Positions 8,130-20,103 of a stretch of 26,883 nt of DNA are shown in pieces. Source of the DNA: a virus. Position 1 is the stretch's first letter. Each line of letters starts with the position of its first letter. The stretch is from the IMG/VR virus record IMGVR_UViG_3300033993_000635, positions 1 to 26,883 of that record; one strand, 5' to 3'. The notes beneath the pieces were generated by a model, which did not search any database, was not told the origin of the DNA, and saw only the letters and a list, made by a program, of their open reading frames with translations. The position numbers and the translations under genes are program-made.

Positions 8130-8328
8130 ATGTAATTTGTTTTATTGTTCTTACTAAATGTTTTACCTTTGCCTCTTCATTATCTAATTTGGCTTGTATC
8201 ATTATCACACTTGCCTGAAGGGTTTCATTGTGTTCTTGCAGATGTTGTACATACTGCAGTAGTTCTCTTATCTCCTCTACGTTCCATACCTGGTCGTTAG
8301 AGTTTGTATTGTCCGATTGATATTGCAT
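8095..8328 (-). CDS. Small coiled-coil protein
   Basis: A 77-aa protein. Residues about 17-65 (EEIRELLQYVQHLQEHNETL, then a basic KVKHLVRTIKQIT) form one long amphipathic helix likely to be a coiled coil. It overlaps the 3' end of the large terminase gene by 32 bases and the following gene by 35 bases, so the three are tightly coupled. I do not recognise a family. Roles as a small assembly factor or a terminase partner are possible; nothing in the sequence decides between them. Confidence 0.7.
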   Translation of the reverse strand: MQYQSDNTNSNDQVWNVEEIRELLQYVQHLQEHNETLQASVIMIQAKLDNEEAKVKHLVRTIKQITYGAGINFTHPN

Positions 8329-9481
8329 ACTTACCTGCGTTTATTTTTCTTACGTTTAATCTTTCCATACACACATAACGGATTGCATCGATAGTATGAT
8401 TGGAGTAATCTACTGGCACATTCTCAAAGTTACCATTCTTATCTACCATCCACACATACTCCGAAAACTCTTGTATGGTATTCTTAGATGCCTTAGTCAC
8501 GTGCAGTTTAAAGGTTTGCATGATGTCTATACCCATGCGAATACTATCCTTACCCTTTCTTACACCCTTAATGTTAAATCCACTTCTATATATTTCTTCT
8601 ATTAATCTTCCCTCTGCACTATCCGCCCATATCTCTGCCCTCTCTACTTCTAAATCTCTTAGTACCTTTACTATCTCTCCTGTCACTAATCCCTTACTAT
8701 ATAACAACTCATCTATATACAGGTTGGTATCCCATTTGTATATCGCCATTATCGTAGTTGGGTCTATACTAAAACCAAAGTCCATACCGAATGCAACGAA
8801 CTCTGCCTCATCTGGTATCGCATCTATTACACTTATGTTAAAGATAGTACCAACATTGTTGCCAGGTATCCCTAATCCGTATATCTTGTAATACTCTGGA
8901 TTAACCTCTTTAAGACGTTCTATCTCATCAACGATGGATTGTTCCAAAAAAGGATTATCTTTGAATGTAGATATGTACAAATCACTCTGAGGGTGTGTCT
9001 GCACTTCATTAAAGATATAGTGGTTAGTTCCGAAGGATGGATTGTACGCGATGATAGTTTTAATCCGCGTTCTGATAAAGAGCTGAAAGTAATCCTCTCT
9101 ACTTAACTCATTACACTCGTCAATGAATAGGTAATCTCTACTACTTCCCTTTCTCTTCTCTGATGAATCGATAGACATAAACTCTACCATACTTCCATTC
9201 TCAAAGGTATAGATGTGTTCCGTTGCACTCCACCGGTCTTCATCCCATATGTTTAACTCTTTCAGTATACCAATCCAATCACGCATAATAGATACACGCA
9301 TTGATGGGAATGATTTCCTTACTATTGATACTACTACTCCAGGTTCTGATAGTGCATGGACTAATATCCATTGTAGTGCTGAATAAGATTTAGAACTTCT
9401 CGTACCACCTTGCAGTATACATATCTTACGCGATGATTCTATATCCCTATATGTCTTACTCGTTCGTATGTTTAGTTCCAT
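8297..9481 (-). CDS. terL: Terminase large subunit (TerL)
   Basis: 394 aa, a DNA-packaging motor with ATPase and nuclease domains. Walker A is GGTRSSKS (residues 25-32) and Walker B DYLFIDECNE (116-125), with the catalytic Glu in DECNE; the coupling motif is IIAYNPS (143-149). The C-terminal RNase H-fold nuclease has the acidic residues expected: D234 in FGMDFGFSIDPT, D287 in WADSAEGR and D365 in NHTIDAIRYV. Length is near the lower end for TerL but both domains are complete. It would assemble on the portal to cut concatemers and pump DNA. The start overlaps the small-terminase-like gene by 26 bases, a normal TerS-TerL arrangement. Confidence 0.95.
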   Translation of the reverse strand: MELNIRTSKTYRDIESSRKICILQGGTRSSKSYSALQWILVHALSEPGVVVSIVRKSFPSMRVSIMRDWIGILKELNIWDEDRWSATEHIYTFENGSMVEFMSIDSSEKRKGSSRDYLFIDECNELSREDYFQLFIRTRIKTIIAYNPSFGTNHYIFNEVQTHPQSDLYISTFKDNPFLEQSIVDEIERLKEVNPEYYKIYGLGIPGNNVGTIFNISVIDAIPDEAEFVAFGMDFGFSIDPTTIMAIYKWDTNLYIDELLYSKGLVTGEIVKVLRDLEVERAEIWADSAEGRLIEEIYRSGFNIKGVRKGKDSIRMGIDIMQTFKLHVTKASKNTIQEFSEYVWMVDKNGNFENVPVDYSNHTIDAIRYVCMERLNVRKINAGKYAISIGQYKL

Positions 9482-10050: not shown

Positions 10051-10399
10051 TTGGGTAATCCTTCTGTCTTTGTATCTTTCTATCTAAGGTCTCCCAATTA
10101 ATTTGTTGTCTTTCAGTTGCATTGACTTCCTTTATCCAATATTGATAATCCGCATCAGTTTGCATTAATCGGTATACCCTTTCATAGTATCCTCTCCATT
10201 GTTCCGGACTCATCTTATGCCAAAATGGATACTCACTACGGATTTGAGTTTTTCTTTCGAAGTACCGAAGATAGTGAGGGTTAGTACGTGAATGCATGAA
10301 GGGAGGTATATCCTTCTTCTTATCTAATGGAACATATGCTTTACTTCTTGTATAATATACTCTACCTGATTTAGCAACTCTTTTATTTTCACTACCCAT
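10031..10399 (-). CDS. Basic hypothetical protein next to sigma-like gene
   Basis: A 122-aa protein rich in Arg, Lys, Tyr and Trp. The N-terminus is strongly basic (KRVAKSGRVYYTRSKAYVPL), followed by aromatic helices (YPFWHKMSPEQWRGYYERVY) and a basic C-terminus. The composition suggests nucleic-acid binding. It overlaps the sigma-factor-like gene by 8 bases and the next small gene by 20 bases, so the three are probably translated together. I do not recognise the family. Confidence 0.68.
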   Translation of the reverse strand: MGSENKRVAKSGRVYYTRSKAYVPLDKKKDIPPFMHSRTNPHYLRYFERKTQIRSEYPFWHKMSPEQWRGYYERVYRLMQTDADYQYWIKEVNATERQQINWETLDRKIQRQKDYPNGFTHD

Positions 10400-10946
10400 T
10401 GAATGGAGATTTAATTGTGTTTTGTAAATACTTTCTTATCTTCTTTACTGCAATGAAGGTAGTACTCTTACTGATACCGATTTTGTCTGCAGTCTCTTGT
10501 AGGGTATCTTCACTCATCCAATACAATTCAAATATCTTTGCAGATGGCCAGAGACGAGTTACGGATAGGGATTTCAATTCGTTAATGACTTCGTTGTGTG
10601 CCCTTTCTAATTCTCTATCTAATTCTTCATCATACGGAACGTCTTCTTCCCATAGTAGTTCTACTTTAACATCACCCATTAGTTCTGTTCGGTTAAGGGA
10701 TTTAGTTTTATTCATAAATCTACTGAATAGAAATTTATTACAATAGAAGATATTATATGATTCACCCCAAAATAGTTTTGGATTTTGTTTGATGTGTAGA
10801 TACTCAAAGAGTTCTTGTACTAAATCCTCTGCCTCTTCCGTATTCTTAGTCAGTTTTTTTGCCTCTGATATTAACCAACGATGTTTGTCGTGATATAGGA
10901 CTGATAATCTTTTATCACATTCTGCTTGGATGCTTCCACTTATCAT
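10392..10946 (-). CDS. Sigma-70-like factor
   Basis: 184 aa with the two-domain plan of short sigma factors. Residues about 22-50 (LISEAKKLTKNTEEAEDLVQ then ELFEYL) match a region 2 helix, including the EEAEDLVQE signature that contacts core polymerase. Residues about 146-174 (EDTLQETADKIGISKSTTFI) form a region 4 helix-turn-helix that would read a -35 type element. The linker (residues 90-125) is acidic. Such genes are common just upstream of terminase genes in Bacteroidota phages. It may redirect host RNA polymerase to phage late promoters; with region 2 partly divergent, a terminase-type DNA-binding role cannot be excluded. Its ATG overlaps the stop of the preceding gene (ATGA). Confidence 0.75.
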   Translation of the reverse strand: MISGSIQAECDKRLSVLYHDKHRWLISEAKKLTKNTEEAEDLVQELFEYLHIKQNPKLFWGESYNIFYCNKFLFSRFMNKTKSLNRTELMGDVKVELLWEEDVPYDEELDRELERAHNEVINELKSLSVTRLWPSAKIFELYWMSEDTLQETADKIGISKSTTFIAVKKIRKYLQNTIKSPFNG

Positions 10947-15035: not shown

Positions 15036-15069
15036 AAAAAAACCCCCTAAATCCAAAGATAAAGGGGGT
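15036..15069 (-). terminator. Strong intrinsic terminator downstream of bS21 gene
   Basis: On the minus strand ACCCCCT / AGGGGGT form a perfect 7-bp, GC-rich stem around a 14-base loop, followed by a run of seven T (counting the last stem base). It is the second of two terminators behind the bS21 gene and separates that operon from the accessory island. Confidence 0.9.
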
Positions 15070-15168: not shown

Positions 15169-15191
15169 GAAAAAAAGACCTATTTGGTCTT
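15169..15191 (-). terminator. Intrinsic terminator overlapping the bS21 stop codon
   Basis: On the minus strand AAGACC / GGTCTT pair over 6 bp around AAATA, followed at once by T residues (seven in a row counting the last stem bases). The stop codon TAG lies inside the hairpin, so a ribosome finishing the gene could disturb folding. Confidence 0.83.
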
Positions 15192-15422
15192 CTTTCTATG
15201 GGTTATCCCATTCTCTCTATCCTGTTCCAGTGTTCTCTCCCTCTGCAGCCTATATAATACTTTATTCATTTTTTCTCTTTTAACTACTGAAGGTTTCTTG
15301 TATTCCTTTCTTTCCCTCAGTTCCTGAAGATGTCCACTATCTTCGACCCTCTTTTTAAATAACTTTAGGGCCTTAGCAATATCTCCGTTTCTAACCTCTA
15401 TTGTAACCAATGTAACACTCAT
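15180..15422 (-). CDS. rpsU: Ribosomal protein bS21 homolog, phage-encoded
   Basis: 80 aa. Residues 5-65 follow the bS21 pattern closely: IEVRNGDIAKALKLFKKRVE, then DSGHLQELRERKEYKKPSVV, then KREKMNKVL. The shared landmarks with E. coli bS21 are AL-x-x-FK, G-x-L-x-E-x-R-x-R and Y-x-KP, in the same order and spacing. The length suits bS21 plus a short basic tail. bS21 joins the 30S platform near the 3' end of 16S rRNA; in Bacteroidota it helps to hide the anti-Shine-Dalgarno sequence. bS21 genes are known in several phages. This one ends a small-gene operon 12 bases after the preceding ORF and sits before two terminators. It probably replaces or competes with host bS21; the effect is not known. 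Confidence 0.85.
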   Translation of the reverse strand: MSVTLVTIEVRNGDIAKALKLFKKRVEDSGHLQELRERKEYKKPSVVKREKMNKVLYRLQRERTLEQDRENGITHRKKTK

Positions 15423-15434
15423 ATCATTTTGTAT

Positions 15435-15587
15435 TTATCTTTTAACCTTGCCCGCTAAGAATGGGACTAATTTGATTTTAACCACCTTGTCCTCTTGTGG
15501 GTTTCGGCCTCGGTGTATGCTTATTGTAACTCTTCGCATACGAGCCTCTCTTTTTATTTTTGGGAACTCTACTATTGCTACTAGCAT
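15435..15587 (-). CDS. Small basic hypothetical protein, 50 aa
   Basis: From ATG 15587 the frame reads MLVAIVEFPKIKREARMRRV, then TISIHRGRNPQEDK, ending with LVPFLAGKVKR. It is strongly basic, with short beta-like stretches, and could bind RNA. It begins 2 bases after the previous stop and ends 12 bases before the bS21 start, filling the operon. Its family is unknown. The tight packing is the support; being short, it remains uncertain. Confidence 0.58.
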   Translation of the reverse strand: MLVAIVEFPKIKREARMRRVTISIHRGRNPQEDKVVKIKLVPFLAGKVKR

Positions 15588-15589
15588 TC

Positions 15590-15736
15590 TTAACCTTTGT
15601 CACTCTCTAATTTTTTATTGAATTCGTTTATTGTCCACGATAAGGATATAAGGATATCTCTTAACTCTTCAACATCTCTTTGAAGATGTTCTACCTTTAA
15701 CTCTAAATCTAATAATCTTGTTTCAGTAGTATCCAT
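15590..15736 (-). CDS. Small coiled-coil protein, 48 aa
   Basis: From ATG 15736: MDTTETRLLDLELKVEHLQR, then DVEELRDILISLSWTINEFN, ending KKLESDKG. Heptads of Leu, Val and Ile from residue 8 to 44 mark a coiled coil. It starts 3 bases after the upstream stop and ends 2 bases before the next ATG. Similar short coiled-coil proteins are common among phage structural genes, but no family can be named. Confidence 0.65.
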   Translation of the reverse strand: MDTTETRLLDLELKVEHLQRDVEELRDILISLSWTINEFNKKLESDKG

Positions 15737-15739
15737 TAT

Positions 15740-16054
15740 CTATTCTTCTTTTATAGGTACACAATTTGGAACTTCTCTTCCATCCATATCCTTTGTACCG
15801 ATTTGTTCGTATCCATCCCAACAAGGGTCACCACCCTCTGCTAAATTGATACCCCTAAACTTTACGTTATATATAATTTTAGCCATTACTTTAGCTGAAG
15901 TATCCTTTATCTTACTCATTTTATCCATATCGTAAGTTCCCTTACATACTGCATAGGCTTGTCCTTCGGAATCGTATTCACTACTGATTTCAGATATACA
16001 TCTACCGATGTACTTCTCTTCCGATTCTCCACTCTCTGGTTTAGGTATTGGCAT
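15740..16054 (-). CDS. Phage protein with RC...VC and CWDGYEQIG...PNCVP motifs
   Basis: A 104-aa protein with two recognisable parts. Residues 1-40 (MPIPKPESGESEEKYIGRCI, later GQAYAVCKG) match a short module in many phages, often beginning IPKP and ending in AVC. Residues 75-100 (DPCWDGYEQIGTKDMDGREV then PNCVPI) match a second module found at the ends of phage structural and protease proteins. Both contain paired Cys. Their roles are unknown. In related phages they occur near the protease and head genes, as here. The gene lies 11 bases after the PA14-like gene. Confidence 0.75.
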   Translation of the reverse strand: MPIPKPESGESEEKYIGRCISEISSEYDSEGQAYAVCKGTYDMDKMSKIKDTSAKVMAKIIYNVKFRGINLAEGGDPCWDGYEQIGTKDMDGREVPNCVPIKEE

Positions 16055-17300: not shown

Positions 17301-18320
17301 TTAATCTAATAGTGCAGGTGATATACTACCACTTGCCTTTTGTCCTGGATATGATGAATTTGGTATAGATGGATTTCCTTCACTTTCATTTAGTAATCCT
17401 AACTCTCTCAATTTATTTCTACTCCATCCCAATGCAGCCTTTCCTCCCCATGCATCATACATAAGTTTACCACAACCATCTCCGTATGCAGTTGATGATA
17501 CTAAATCACCTTCGTGTCTGCTTAAGAAACTATACATGCGTTTGATTGTATCAACCGATATTGGTTCTCCTTTAGCTAATTGATTTGCTCTTTGTTTGCC
17601 AACGGGTGTTCCACAACTTCCCCAACCATTTTTATCTGCGTATTCTAATGCCCTTTTAGCATTTGCCTTCACACCATCCGGATAATCAGCATAAGATTCT
17701 TCTAATTCGGTTTGAGCCTTTAAAAGTAAATGAATAGAATTTAATAAATCCCTTGCTTCACTTTCAGTTAAATCATTAACCTCTTTTAATAAATAAGATT
17801 TAGATGCATGAATTAATTTATGAGAGAATAAACCCTCAATACTGAATCCTTTTACAATCCCTGTCTTAATATAATCATTCCAAAGCCTATCATCAGTAAT
17901 CTTAAACATCCCCATCCACGTTCCCTCTGGTAATCCAGCTAATCCGTAAGAATTGGATTTATCTAATCTACCTTCTTTAATCCAGGATTCCACTAAATGA
18001 ACTCCCTTAATCGTTTTATCGTGTTCTAAGGTTGCTTTATCAGTATACTTTTTCATTAAGTAATTCTGTGCAACTTGTTTAATCGTATCTTTAGACAGGT
18101 AGACTTGATAAGGTTTACCCTCACCATCTACTCTTAAAATTCTTTTATCTGGAATAAGAACTGGTCCGATTAACATACGTTGTTCTTCATCAACCTTTGC
18201 AAATTGAATTTCTTCTTTACCGAAATAGATAAAATCAGATTCAATGGCAGGATTTTCTACAAGTGAAATTGCAAAAACCTCATCCATCTTCTCCTCTATT
18301 GTTAATTCAAATAATTCCAT
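17301..18320 (-). CDS. Prohead protease, XkdF-like, with extra C-terminal domain
   Basis: 339 aa. The protease domain (residues about 1-185) has the XkdF-type signatures: the start VFAISLVENPAIESDFIYF, LIPDKRILR, then YTDKATLEHDK with catalytic His100 and IKTGIVKGFSIEGLF with catalytic Ser160. It should mature the capsid by cutting scaffold and coat. A second domain (about 200-310) contains YADYPDGVKANAKRALEYAD, GWGSCGTPVGKQRANQLAKG and GDGCGKLMYDAWGG, a module known in several phage proteins with unknown role. It lies directly after the tape measure gene and far from the capsid genes, an unusual placement. Confidence 0.87.
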   Translation of the reverse strand: MELFELTIEEKMDEVFAISLVENPAIESDFIYFGKEEIQFAKVDEEQRMLIGPVLIPDKRILRVDGEGKPYQVYLSKDTIKQVAQNYLMKKYTDKATLEHDKTIKGVHLVESWIKEGRLDKSNSYGLAGLPEGTWMGMFKITDDRLWNDYIKTGIVKGFSIEGLFSHKLIHASKSYLLKEVNDLTESEARDLLNSIHLLLKAQTELEESYADYPDGVKANAKRALEYADKNGWGSCGTPVGKQRANQLAKGEPISVDTIKRMYSFLSRHEGDLVSSTAYGDGCGKLMYDAWGGKAALGWSRNKLRELGLLNESEGNPSIPNSSYPGQKASGSISPALLD

Positions 18321-18351: not shown

Positions 18352-20103
18352 TTACCCACCTGAAAAGGTTGCTGCTCTATTTGTTCTTCTATCTAATGCA
18401 GATTGATTTTGTATATCTTGAGAAACTACATAAGCACGCACGCCTTTCATTTGACCACCTATTGTTTCACCTAATTGTTGTCCTGCGTTAATTCCTTGAC
18501 CACTTTGTATTTGTGGTGCACCTACTGCTGCTACTGTTGGTGGTGCAATATTTACTGCTCCTCCTCCACCTCCACTTGCTCCTCCACCTCCACCACCACC
18601 TGCTTTCTTAGCGGATAGGATTGCTGCTACCTGAATTGCAGATGATGCTCCTACTGCAGCAACTTGTAGAGTTGTATTTACTTTGGTTGCAGCCTTACCT
18701 GCAATCGCACCTGTTACTGCTGCTTTACCTGCTGCTATCTCTGCGATACCAATACCGGCAGTAATTGGATTTACTAATTTTGGTATACCCATAAGGATTG
18801 CAGCATTACCTGTTGCAATTGCTTTATTGTATTCTGCTTGTGATGCTGCACCATTCAAAAGGATTTGACCAATTGAAGATGCTGCGTTAATAAGAACTGC
18901 TGCTACTGCAAATACTTTTTGTGCGGTTGAACCTTGTTCAAATACTGTGGTTAAATTTTGTAATATACCTGATATATTAGTACCTAAATCTACCCAACTT
19001 TGACCAATGACTTGATTTGTCTTAAAGGTTAAATCTTCTCTATTTTGTTCTAACTCTTTAATCTTCTCATATTGTTCCATTTGGAACTTAGAAAACTCAT
19101 CGTACTTCTTTTTCTTTTCCTCATCCTCTTTATCTTGTTTATCTCTAGCCTCTTTTAGATATTTATCATCAATCTCTTTTAGTGCGTTTGCCTGTGCAAG
19201 TTTTAATTGAGTTGTATCATCACCATATTTAGTTGCAAGATATAATAGATTTGCATAATGTTCATTAACTTTATATTCTTCAGCTTCTCTTTCAGAAAGT
19301 AATTCTAAGAATGCTTCCTTCTGCCCGTCAGATAATTCTTTTAATTCTTCTGCCTTAATTCTTTTTGCTTCATCTGCTGCAGCCTTCTGTGCTTCGTTTC
19401 TTTCTTTAAGATTTTCTTTTTCAATCTTAGTTAACTTCTTAGTTCCAGCAACATATCTTTCCTGTGCTGCTTCAAAGTTGGTAGAGAATGAGGTTACTGA
19501 TGCCTTTGCATCTTCCCACGCACCAGAGAAATCTCCTTTAACTAATTTACCAATAGCAGAACCTAATTTACCCAATGATTGGAAAAGGGCAGTAACTGCA
19601 GAGTATGCAACTGAAACCGCTTTAGATACATAAGGAAGAGCGGTAGTAGCGAATTCGATAAATCCATCTATTAGTGGTGATAAAGCCTCTAAAATACCCC
19701 CTAAAATCCTTTGTAATGCAATTAAGATAGGTTCAAACTTCTTTGCTGCTTCATCTGATTGAGAGAATGCTGCTGCTAAACCTGCAACTAAAGAAACTAA
19801 TAAACCAATACCAGTTGCTTTTAATGCTGCTCCAAATGATTGTGTAGAAACTTTTAACTTATTTATACTAGCACCTAACGCACCTAATGGTCCACCTGCA
19901 CTTTCTAAACTATCTACCCAATCTGATGATTGGTTTTTAGCTGATTTAATTTTATCTTCTAAATCATCTATTGCATTATATAATTTTGTAAATTCCGCAG
20001 AACCAGCTGCAGTCTTCTTTAATTCAGCTTTAAGTGCTTTTAAATCTGCTATTGAACTGGCAGTATCTATATCTACTTTTATTTTGACTGTCTTGTCGGC
20101 CAT
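18352..20103 (-). CDS. Tail tape measure protein
   Basis: 583 aa. The N-terminus (VKIKVDIDTASSIADLKALK then AELKKTAAGSAEF) is a tape-measure-type repeat region. Hydrophobic helices at about 95-115 (GLLVSLVAGLAAAF) and 395-500 (VFAVAAVLINAASS and others) could form membrane passages during DNA entry. A long charged coiled coil occupies about 225-375, rich in Lys and Glu. A Gly-rich linker near 502-518 precedes a polar C-terminus. The protein sets tail length and is ejected with DNA; at about 0.15 nm per residue the maximum is near 87 nm, fewer if processed. Large size and helical, Ala-rich content support the call despite its place after the tail-tip genes. Confidence 0.88.
   Translation of the reverse strand: MADKTVKIKVDIDTASSIADLKALKAELKKTAAGSAEFTKLYNAIDDLEDKIKSAKNQSSDWVDSLESAGGPLGALGASINKLKVSTQSFGAALKATGIGLLVSLVAGLAAAFSQSDEAAKKFEPILIALQRILGGILEALSPLIDGFIEFATTALPYVSKAVSVAYSAVTALFQSLGKLGSAIGKLVKGDFSGAWEDAKASVTSFSTNFEAAQERYVAGTKKLTKIEKENLKERNEAQKAAADEAKRIKAEELKELSDGQKEAFLELLSEREAEEYKVNEHYANLLYLATKYGDDTTQLKLAQANALKEIDDKYLKEARDKQDKEDEEKKKKYDEFSKFQMEQYEKIKELEQNREDLTFKTNQVIGQSWVDLGTNISGILQNLTTVFEQGSTAQKVFAVAAVLINAASSIGQILLNGAASQAEYNKAIATGNAAILMGIPKLVNPITAGIGIAEIAAGKAAVTGAIAGKAATKVNTTLQVAAVGASSAIQVAAILSAKKAGGGGGGGASGGGGGAVNIAPPTVAAVGAPQIQSGQGINAGQQLGETIGGQMKGVRAYVVSQDIQNQSALDRRTNRAATFSGG

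Follow-up and report, generated by a model that had tools for sequence, protein, structure and literature searches.

A phage-encoded bS21 ribosomal protein gene in an optional genomic slot, with a conserved aromatic residue and no Shine-Dalgarno leader

The window analysed here is the whole of IMG/VR virus record IMGVR_UViG_3300033993_000635, 26,883 bases in length. The record has no end repeats, and the contig is therefore probably a fragment of a phage genome. Its likely genes all lie on the minus strand, and among them is a single-copy gene for the ribosomal protein bS21. The features on which the analysis draws are listed below in the direction of transcription.

18352..20103, minus strand: tail tape measure-like protein (PHROG 1538, E 6e-4), upstream of bS21 in the same gene string
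17301..18320, minus strand: XkdF-like phage serine protease (PF14550, E 5e-16), upstream of bS21 in the same gene string
15740..16054, minus strand: 104-aa conserved protein (PHROGs of unknown function; synteny), same gene string
15590..15736, minus strand: 48-aa ORF with a heptad-like, coiled-coil look (tblastn), conserved in place
15478..15603, minus strand: small basic ORF of 41 aa with a GTG start and an RGQGG end (tblastn), directly 5' of bS21
15423..15454, minus strand: bS21 leader, A-rich, with no Shine-Dalgarno (SD) sequence and a pairing energy of -1.5 kcal/mol
15180..15422, minus strand: bS21 gene, ATG start, 80 aa (PF01165, TIGR00030, PHROG 21469)
15170..15196, minus strand: U-rich terminator-like hairpin overlapping the bS21 stop codon (RNA fold -11.9 kcal/mol, z -4.4)
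15042..15069, minus strand: second terminator-like hairpin, downstream of bS21, CCCCC...GGGGG followed by a U-run (fold)
8297..9481, minus strand: terminase large subunit (PF04466/PF17288), used as a query for sister phages with and without bS21

The order of genes is tape measure-like protein, XkdF-like protease, small conserved genes, the 104-aa protein, the 48-aa ORF, the 41-aa ORF, bS21 and the hairpin, and bS21 is the last gene of a tail/protease cassette, placed just before a terminator. The 41-aa basic ORF overlaps another frame and is hidden by it. Hairpins equivalent to the one at 15170..15196 follow bS21 in two related loci (L062 and L005); a simple terminator scan listed this palindrome on the plus strand alone. 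A promoter scan around bS21 gave no more matches than shuffled sequence did. Downstream of bS21 the window also encodes a sigma factor-like phage protein (sigma-70 region 2-like; 10392..10946, minus strand; PF04542, E 2e-5; PHROG 1740), and the phage may therefore redirect transcription besides translation.

The original prediction recognised an 80-aa bS21 from its sequence motifs, and AL-KL-FK, G-H-L-Q-E-L-R-E-R and Y-K-KP are all present. Searched against profiles of the bS21 family, the product scores above the curated cut-offs of both PF01165 (E 7.8e-13, 48.4 bits against a cut-off of 27, profile positions 1-53 of 55) and TIGR00030 (46 bits against a cut-off of 28.95, positions 1-57 of 58), and it matches PHROG 21469, 'ribosomal protein S21', at 8e-8. 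Its sequence matches in the PDB are bS21 chains, the best being 9i5v (E 4e-10), and they include the ribosome of Flavobacterium johnsoniae (7jil, 9e-7). The ORF is thus a genuine bS21 gene, and its motifs are no coincidence.

The protein is basic in composition, with 23 K/R and 12 D/E residues. Its AlphaFold model (mean pLDDT 82) places helices at residues 15-29, 31-37 and 44-71, a predicted arrangement that would match the three-helix plan of F. johnsoniae bS21, and the C-terminal tail is some 15-20 residues longer than that of the host protein. A Foldseek search of the model against the PDB put mitochondrial ribosome chains, bS21m included, on top, with weak E values of 0.1-0.4 that add little. 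Compared with an 86% identical homologue (L003), the gene has a dN/dS of 0.11, taken from this closest usable pair alone with dS saturated in most pairs, and is therefore kept by purifying selection.

The window protein is about 33-40% identical to the Bacteroidota bS21s aligned with it. V at F. johnsoniae position 23 and H at position 28 are found in 7/7 members of the window family and in 14/14 members of a large-phage group that carries R at residue 54. Both positions are among the sites that diverge between phage and Bacteroidetes bS21, in the mRNA-facing part of the protein (Chen et al. 2022, PMC9723584). In a 55-column tree, used for its coarse grouping alone with most forks unresolved and with Chen's own sequences not identified in the set, the window family falls with bS21 from large IMG/VR phages, the chromosomal bS21 of Bacteroidota being placed separately (support 91/94). 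This coarse split is weak evidence that the window bS21 belongs to a phage lineage, but it speaks against recent capture of the gene from a sampled host.

The window was originally described as almost free of SD leaders, and this description holds. Over 36 likely genes, the energy of pairing to the 16S tail (UCACCUCCUUUCU) has a median of -1.2 kcal/mol for the SD region and of -3.15 for a mock region lying further upstream; the strongest SD pairing energy of any of them is -8.5 kcal/mol, and 27-28 of the 36 have A at -12 and -13. Such SD-free, A-led start regions are the Bacteroidota pattern. In sequence, the terminase comes closest to those of Phocaeicola and Flavobacterium phages, at about 37% identity, and the only matches of the capsid protein are to Nonlabens phages (26% identity). 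Taken with the SD-free genes, these likenesses make a member of the Bacteroidota the probable host, as a pointer and not a proof. A terminase search of 395 genomes of the phylum of Tenacibaculum returned prophage relatives at about 30-37% identity and nothing closer. The overall picture first drawn, of a phage-encoded bS21 in an SD-free genome, is thus borne out in the identity of the protein, its phage origin and the leaders.

Relatives for the comparison of synteny were found with the terminase and with bS21 as queries. bS21 stands at the same place in seven loci (the window, L003, L004, L005, L006, L010 and L062), and at least 13 syntenic relatives have no bS21 detectable with all HMMER filters off (L067, L081, L082, L085, L088, L093, L104-L106, L109, L113, L117 and L124). 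Homologues of the small basic ORF occur in relatives of both kinds (tblastn; the site that follows was compared in 13 relatives), and the stop of this ORF (15478-15603) marks the slot that bS21 takes. Where relatives without bS21 were inspected (L088, L093, L104-L106, L108, L117 and L124), a terminator-like hairpin comes immediately after the small basic ORF, which in most of them ends in RGQGR, the window having RGQGG. With the slot filled in seven loci and empty in at least 13 relatives, bS21 is therefore an accessory gene, and its site at the 3' end of the gene string is fixed. The genomes are mosaic: L062 and the window share a terminase that is 98% identical and a bS21 that is only about 70% identical, which suggests that exchange may have taken place around the slot.

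Aligned to 7jil, Y57 of the window protein corresponds to Y54 of F. johnsoniae bS21, and the KPS motif is retained. In F. johnsoniae, Y54 stacks on A1534 of 16S rRNA and turns the tail of that rRNA toward bS18 and bS6; SD-dependent initiation rises with the Y54A change or when bS21 is lost, and SD-less initiation falls when bS21 is lost (McNutt et al. 2023, PMC9976891). The equivalent residue is Y in six and F in one of the seven members of the window family. As judged by alignment, the kept aromatic residue is a feature of the Bacteroidia-type bS21 that would hide the anti-SD. The earlier suggestion that the phage copy blocks SD use is consistent with these data, given that the A1534-stacking residue is kept.

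To relate this residue to SD use more widely, about 130 viral bS21 loci were scanned and grouped into 34 clusters, and SD use was measured on neighbouring genes. All 24 clusters with an aromatic residue 54 (Y, F or H) are SD-free (motif excess at most 0.17), and all 10 with a non-aromatic residue (R, A, S, Q, K, I or N) are SD-using (motif excess at least 0.25), the latter including phages of Pseudomonas, Pelagibacter and Salicola. The separation of the 34 clusters is perfect (Mann-Whitney p 6e-6); the tree holds about three independent changes of residue 54, with one independent pair on well-supported branches, and the p value is therefore not independent evidence. A single lineage is even divided by this split, its window family having Y and its large phages R. 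Across these sequences, residue 54 tracks SD use strongly but with little replication, and the phylum of the host may account for much of the pattern. If it holds in more independent lineages, the initiation mode of a host could be read from the bS21 of its phage.

Several viral loci depart from these arrangements or add to them. In three of the 24 aromatic clusters (L294, L295 and L369), the bS21 gene has an SD (-9.6 to -12.1) in the midst of genes that have none, an arrangement also seen in hosts; the aromatic-54 phages with an SD on bS21 (L294, L295 and L369-L373) include one of 735 kb. The three clusters would serve as a natural comparison for the uncoupled majority of aromatic-54 phages. 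Large IMG/VR phages with R54 (L013-L046) have an SD on about 70% of their genes and none on the bS21 gene; Bacteroidota chromosomes show the opposite arrangement. bS21 overlaps or adjoins ClpX, and lies near ClpS, in the jumbo phages MIJ3 of Pseudomonas (L290) and SCTP-2 of Salicola (L291); FtsH is also near bS21 in MIJ3, and in Pelagibacter phage Mosig (L293) an AAA-family protein is close to it. These neighbours fit the speculation of McNutt et al. (PMC9976891) that phages with bS21 encode a protease against the host bS21.

Pairing energies of the bS21 leaders in the window family range from -1.5 to +1.6 kcal/mol, and the window leader has an out-of-frame ATG five bases 5' of the start codon. 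In many Flavobacteriales, rpsU carries an extended SD that is used well only by ribosomes lacking bS21, and the gene is thereby autoregulated (PMC9976891). With an extended SD defined as leader pairing below -13 kcal/mol, the window gene (-1.5 kcal/mol) does not have the one found on SD-autoregulated Bacteroidota rpsU. As no leader of the window family has it, the phage bS21 gene is not wired into the rpsU loop. We rejected the missing SD as a peculiarity of phages: among 42 sampled chromosomal bS21 genes of the Y54 type, 22 pair more strongly than -13 kcal/mol (mostly -17 to -20) and 20, about half, are also without a strong SD. An SD-less leader is also the default for genes of the window phage. 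Some Bacteroidota genomes have two to four bS21 copies, namely a Tenacibaculum genome (G005; L231, L232, L234 and L141) and Lewinellaceae (L140 and L142); one of the Tenacibaculum copies has an extended SD, and none is present on the others examined, which are SD-less.

The explanation we prefer, with moderate confidence, is that the window bS21 is a real, selected protein that would join host 30S subunits during infection, keep the ribosomes blind to SDs and escape host feedback. From its position in the tail/protease cassette it would be made late; in Bacteroidetes myophages, bS21 is transcribed along with the late genes (PMC9723584). It would then replace or top up host bS21 in 30S subunits, and the bS21 of pelagiphage HTVC008M is known to enter E. 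coli 70S ribosomes (Mizuno et al. 2019, PMC6375957). Replete with bS21 and SD-blind, the ribosomes would be in the state that in F. johnsoniae was shown to be best for SD-less mRNAs, the kind of mRNA that the phage makes. With no extended SD in the leader of its gene, the phage protein would go on being made once ribosomes are replete. Host rpsU, provided that it has the SD loop, would then be turned off, and ribosomes would thus drift from host to phage bS21. Against this explanation, sister phages do without bS21, and the host, itself only probably one of the Bacteroidota, may have an rpsU outside the SD loop, like 20 of the 42 Y54-type chromosomal genes.

A more far-reaching version, which we hold as no better than tentative, makes the feedback itself the means of takeover: the SD-less phage bS21 gene would make ribosomes replete and blind to SDs and thereby silence an SD-driven rpsU, so that the host protein would be replaced without a dedicated protease, and phages of SD-using hosts would have lost the aromatic residue.

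The idea that phage bS21 shifts mRNA selection toward phage messages, put forward by Chen et al. 2022, Mizuno et al. 2019 and the original prediction, seems to us unlikely for this locus. The N-terminal V23 and H28 common to phage bS21s, at Chen's divergent mRNA-facing positions, speak for it, but no leader feature sets phages with bS21 apart from those without, and host leaders are likewise SD-free and A-rich. In a comparison that is coarse, with ORF starts taken mechanically, median SD-region energies are -1.1 in phages with bS21, -0.4 in sisters without it and +0.15 to -1.7 in three host genomes, and leaders are A-rich throughout, Flavobacteria-like chromosomes included. With leaders alike in phages and hosts, a basis for choosing phage mRNA is therefore not visible. 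We accordingly rejected the leaders as support for such a preference, and the proposed tilt toward A-rich phage leaders draws nothing from the comparison of phage and host genes.

It is similarly doubtful that the phage only tops up an easily lost, exchangeable protein as host expression stops, with the specificity of the ribosome unchanged. Simple supply agrees with the loose and exchangeable binding of bS21 (PMC6375957), with the retention of the key aromatic residue and with the place of the gene among structural genes; the divergence from Bacteroidota bS21s, the phage signature and the longer tail, however, exceed the needs of a plain spare copy. Phage bS21 can also impair, to judge by the analogy of E. 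coli ribosomes, which were left about 5% active in vitro with the pelagiphage protein (PMC6375957). That the window protein poisons or remodels host ribosomes, lowering host translation, is nevertheless improbable, since that result came from a distant ribosome and the place of the gene after the tail/protease genes argues for late use, when the phage needs translation. Freeing of the anti-SD so that ribosomes begin using SDs, also raised originally and produced in F. johnsoniae by mutation of Y54 (PMC9976891), is contradicted by the kept Y57 and its aromatic equivalents throughout the family and by phage genes that offer freed ribosomes no SDs to exploit, and is very nearly dismissed.

Much of the background to our preferred explanation has been published: that phages carry bS21, Bacteroidetes phages among them, that the aromatic residue is kept and expression is late, and the idea of replacement (PMC9723584, PMC6375957), the swap into ribosomes having been proposed by Chen et al. 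(2022, ISME Commun, PMC9723584) for the large myophages of Bacteroidetes. McNutt et al. (PMC9976891) have speculated on phage bS21 in relation to the rpsU loop. The phages of Chen et al. share with the window the bS21 family, the aromatic residue 54, the divergence at positions 23 and 28, nearby structural genes and inferred Bacteroidota hosts. They are, however, myoviruses of 293-331 kb in which bS21 lies on the strand opposite the structural genes, beside a conserved partner, bS21_CN (PMC9723584), whereas in the window it is on the strand of its neighbours, last before the terminator and in an optional slot. The relatives of the window differ in size as well: the terminase kin are Phocaeicola and Flavobacterium phages of about 36-43 kb, and the distant capsid kin are the 36-kb Nonlabens phages P12024L/S. 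F. johnsoniae rpsU/bS21 (PDB 7jil; PMC9976891) has the same helix plan and KPS motif and an aligned Y54; the phage gene differs in lacking the extended SD of rpsU, and its protein in a longer C-terminal tail and in substitutions at positions 21-28. The bS21 of pelagiphages and jumbo phages (PMC6375957) is likewise carried by phages, and those examined with known proteobacterial hosts have, unlike the window, a non-aromatic residue 54 and SD-led genes.

In the openly licensed literature we found no paper on phage bS21 leaders, on the smaller phage group, on the optional slot or on residue 54 in relation to phage SD use. New here are the accessory bS21 slot, the missing autoregulatory SD, the pattern of residue 54 and SD use, and the smaller phage lineage. 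bS21 is carried by phages more than any other ribosomal protein, and the locus bears on why phages favour it. Sister phages with and without bS21 at one site, together with the missing SD, allow cheap and direct tests in Flavobacterium johnsoniae, for which the rpsU loop and reporters exist.
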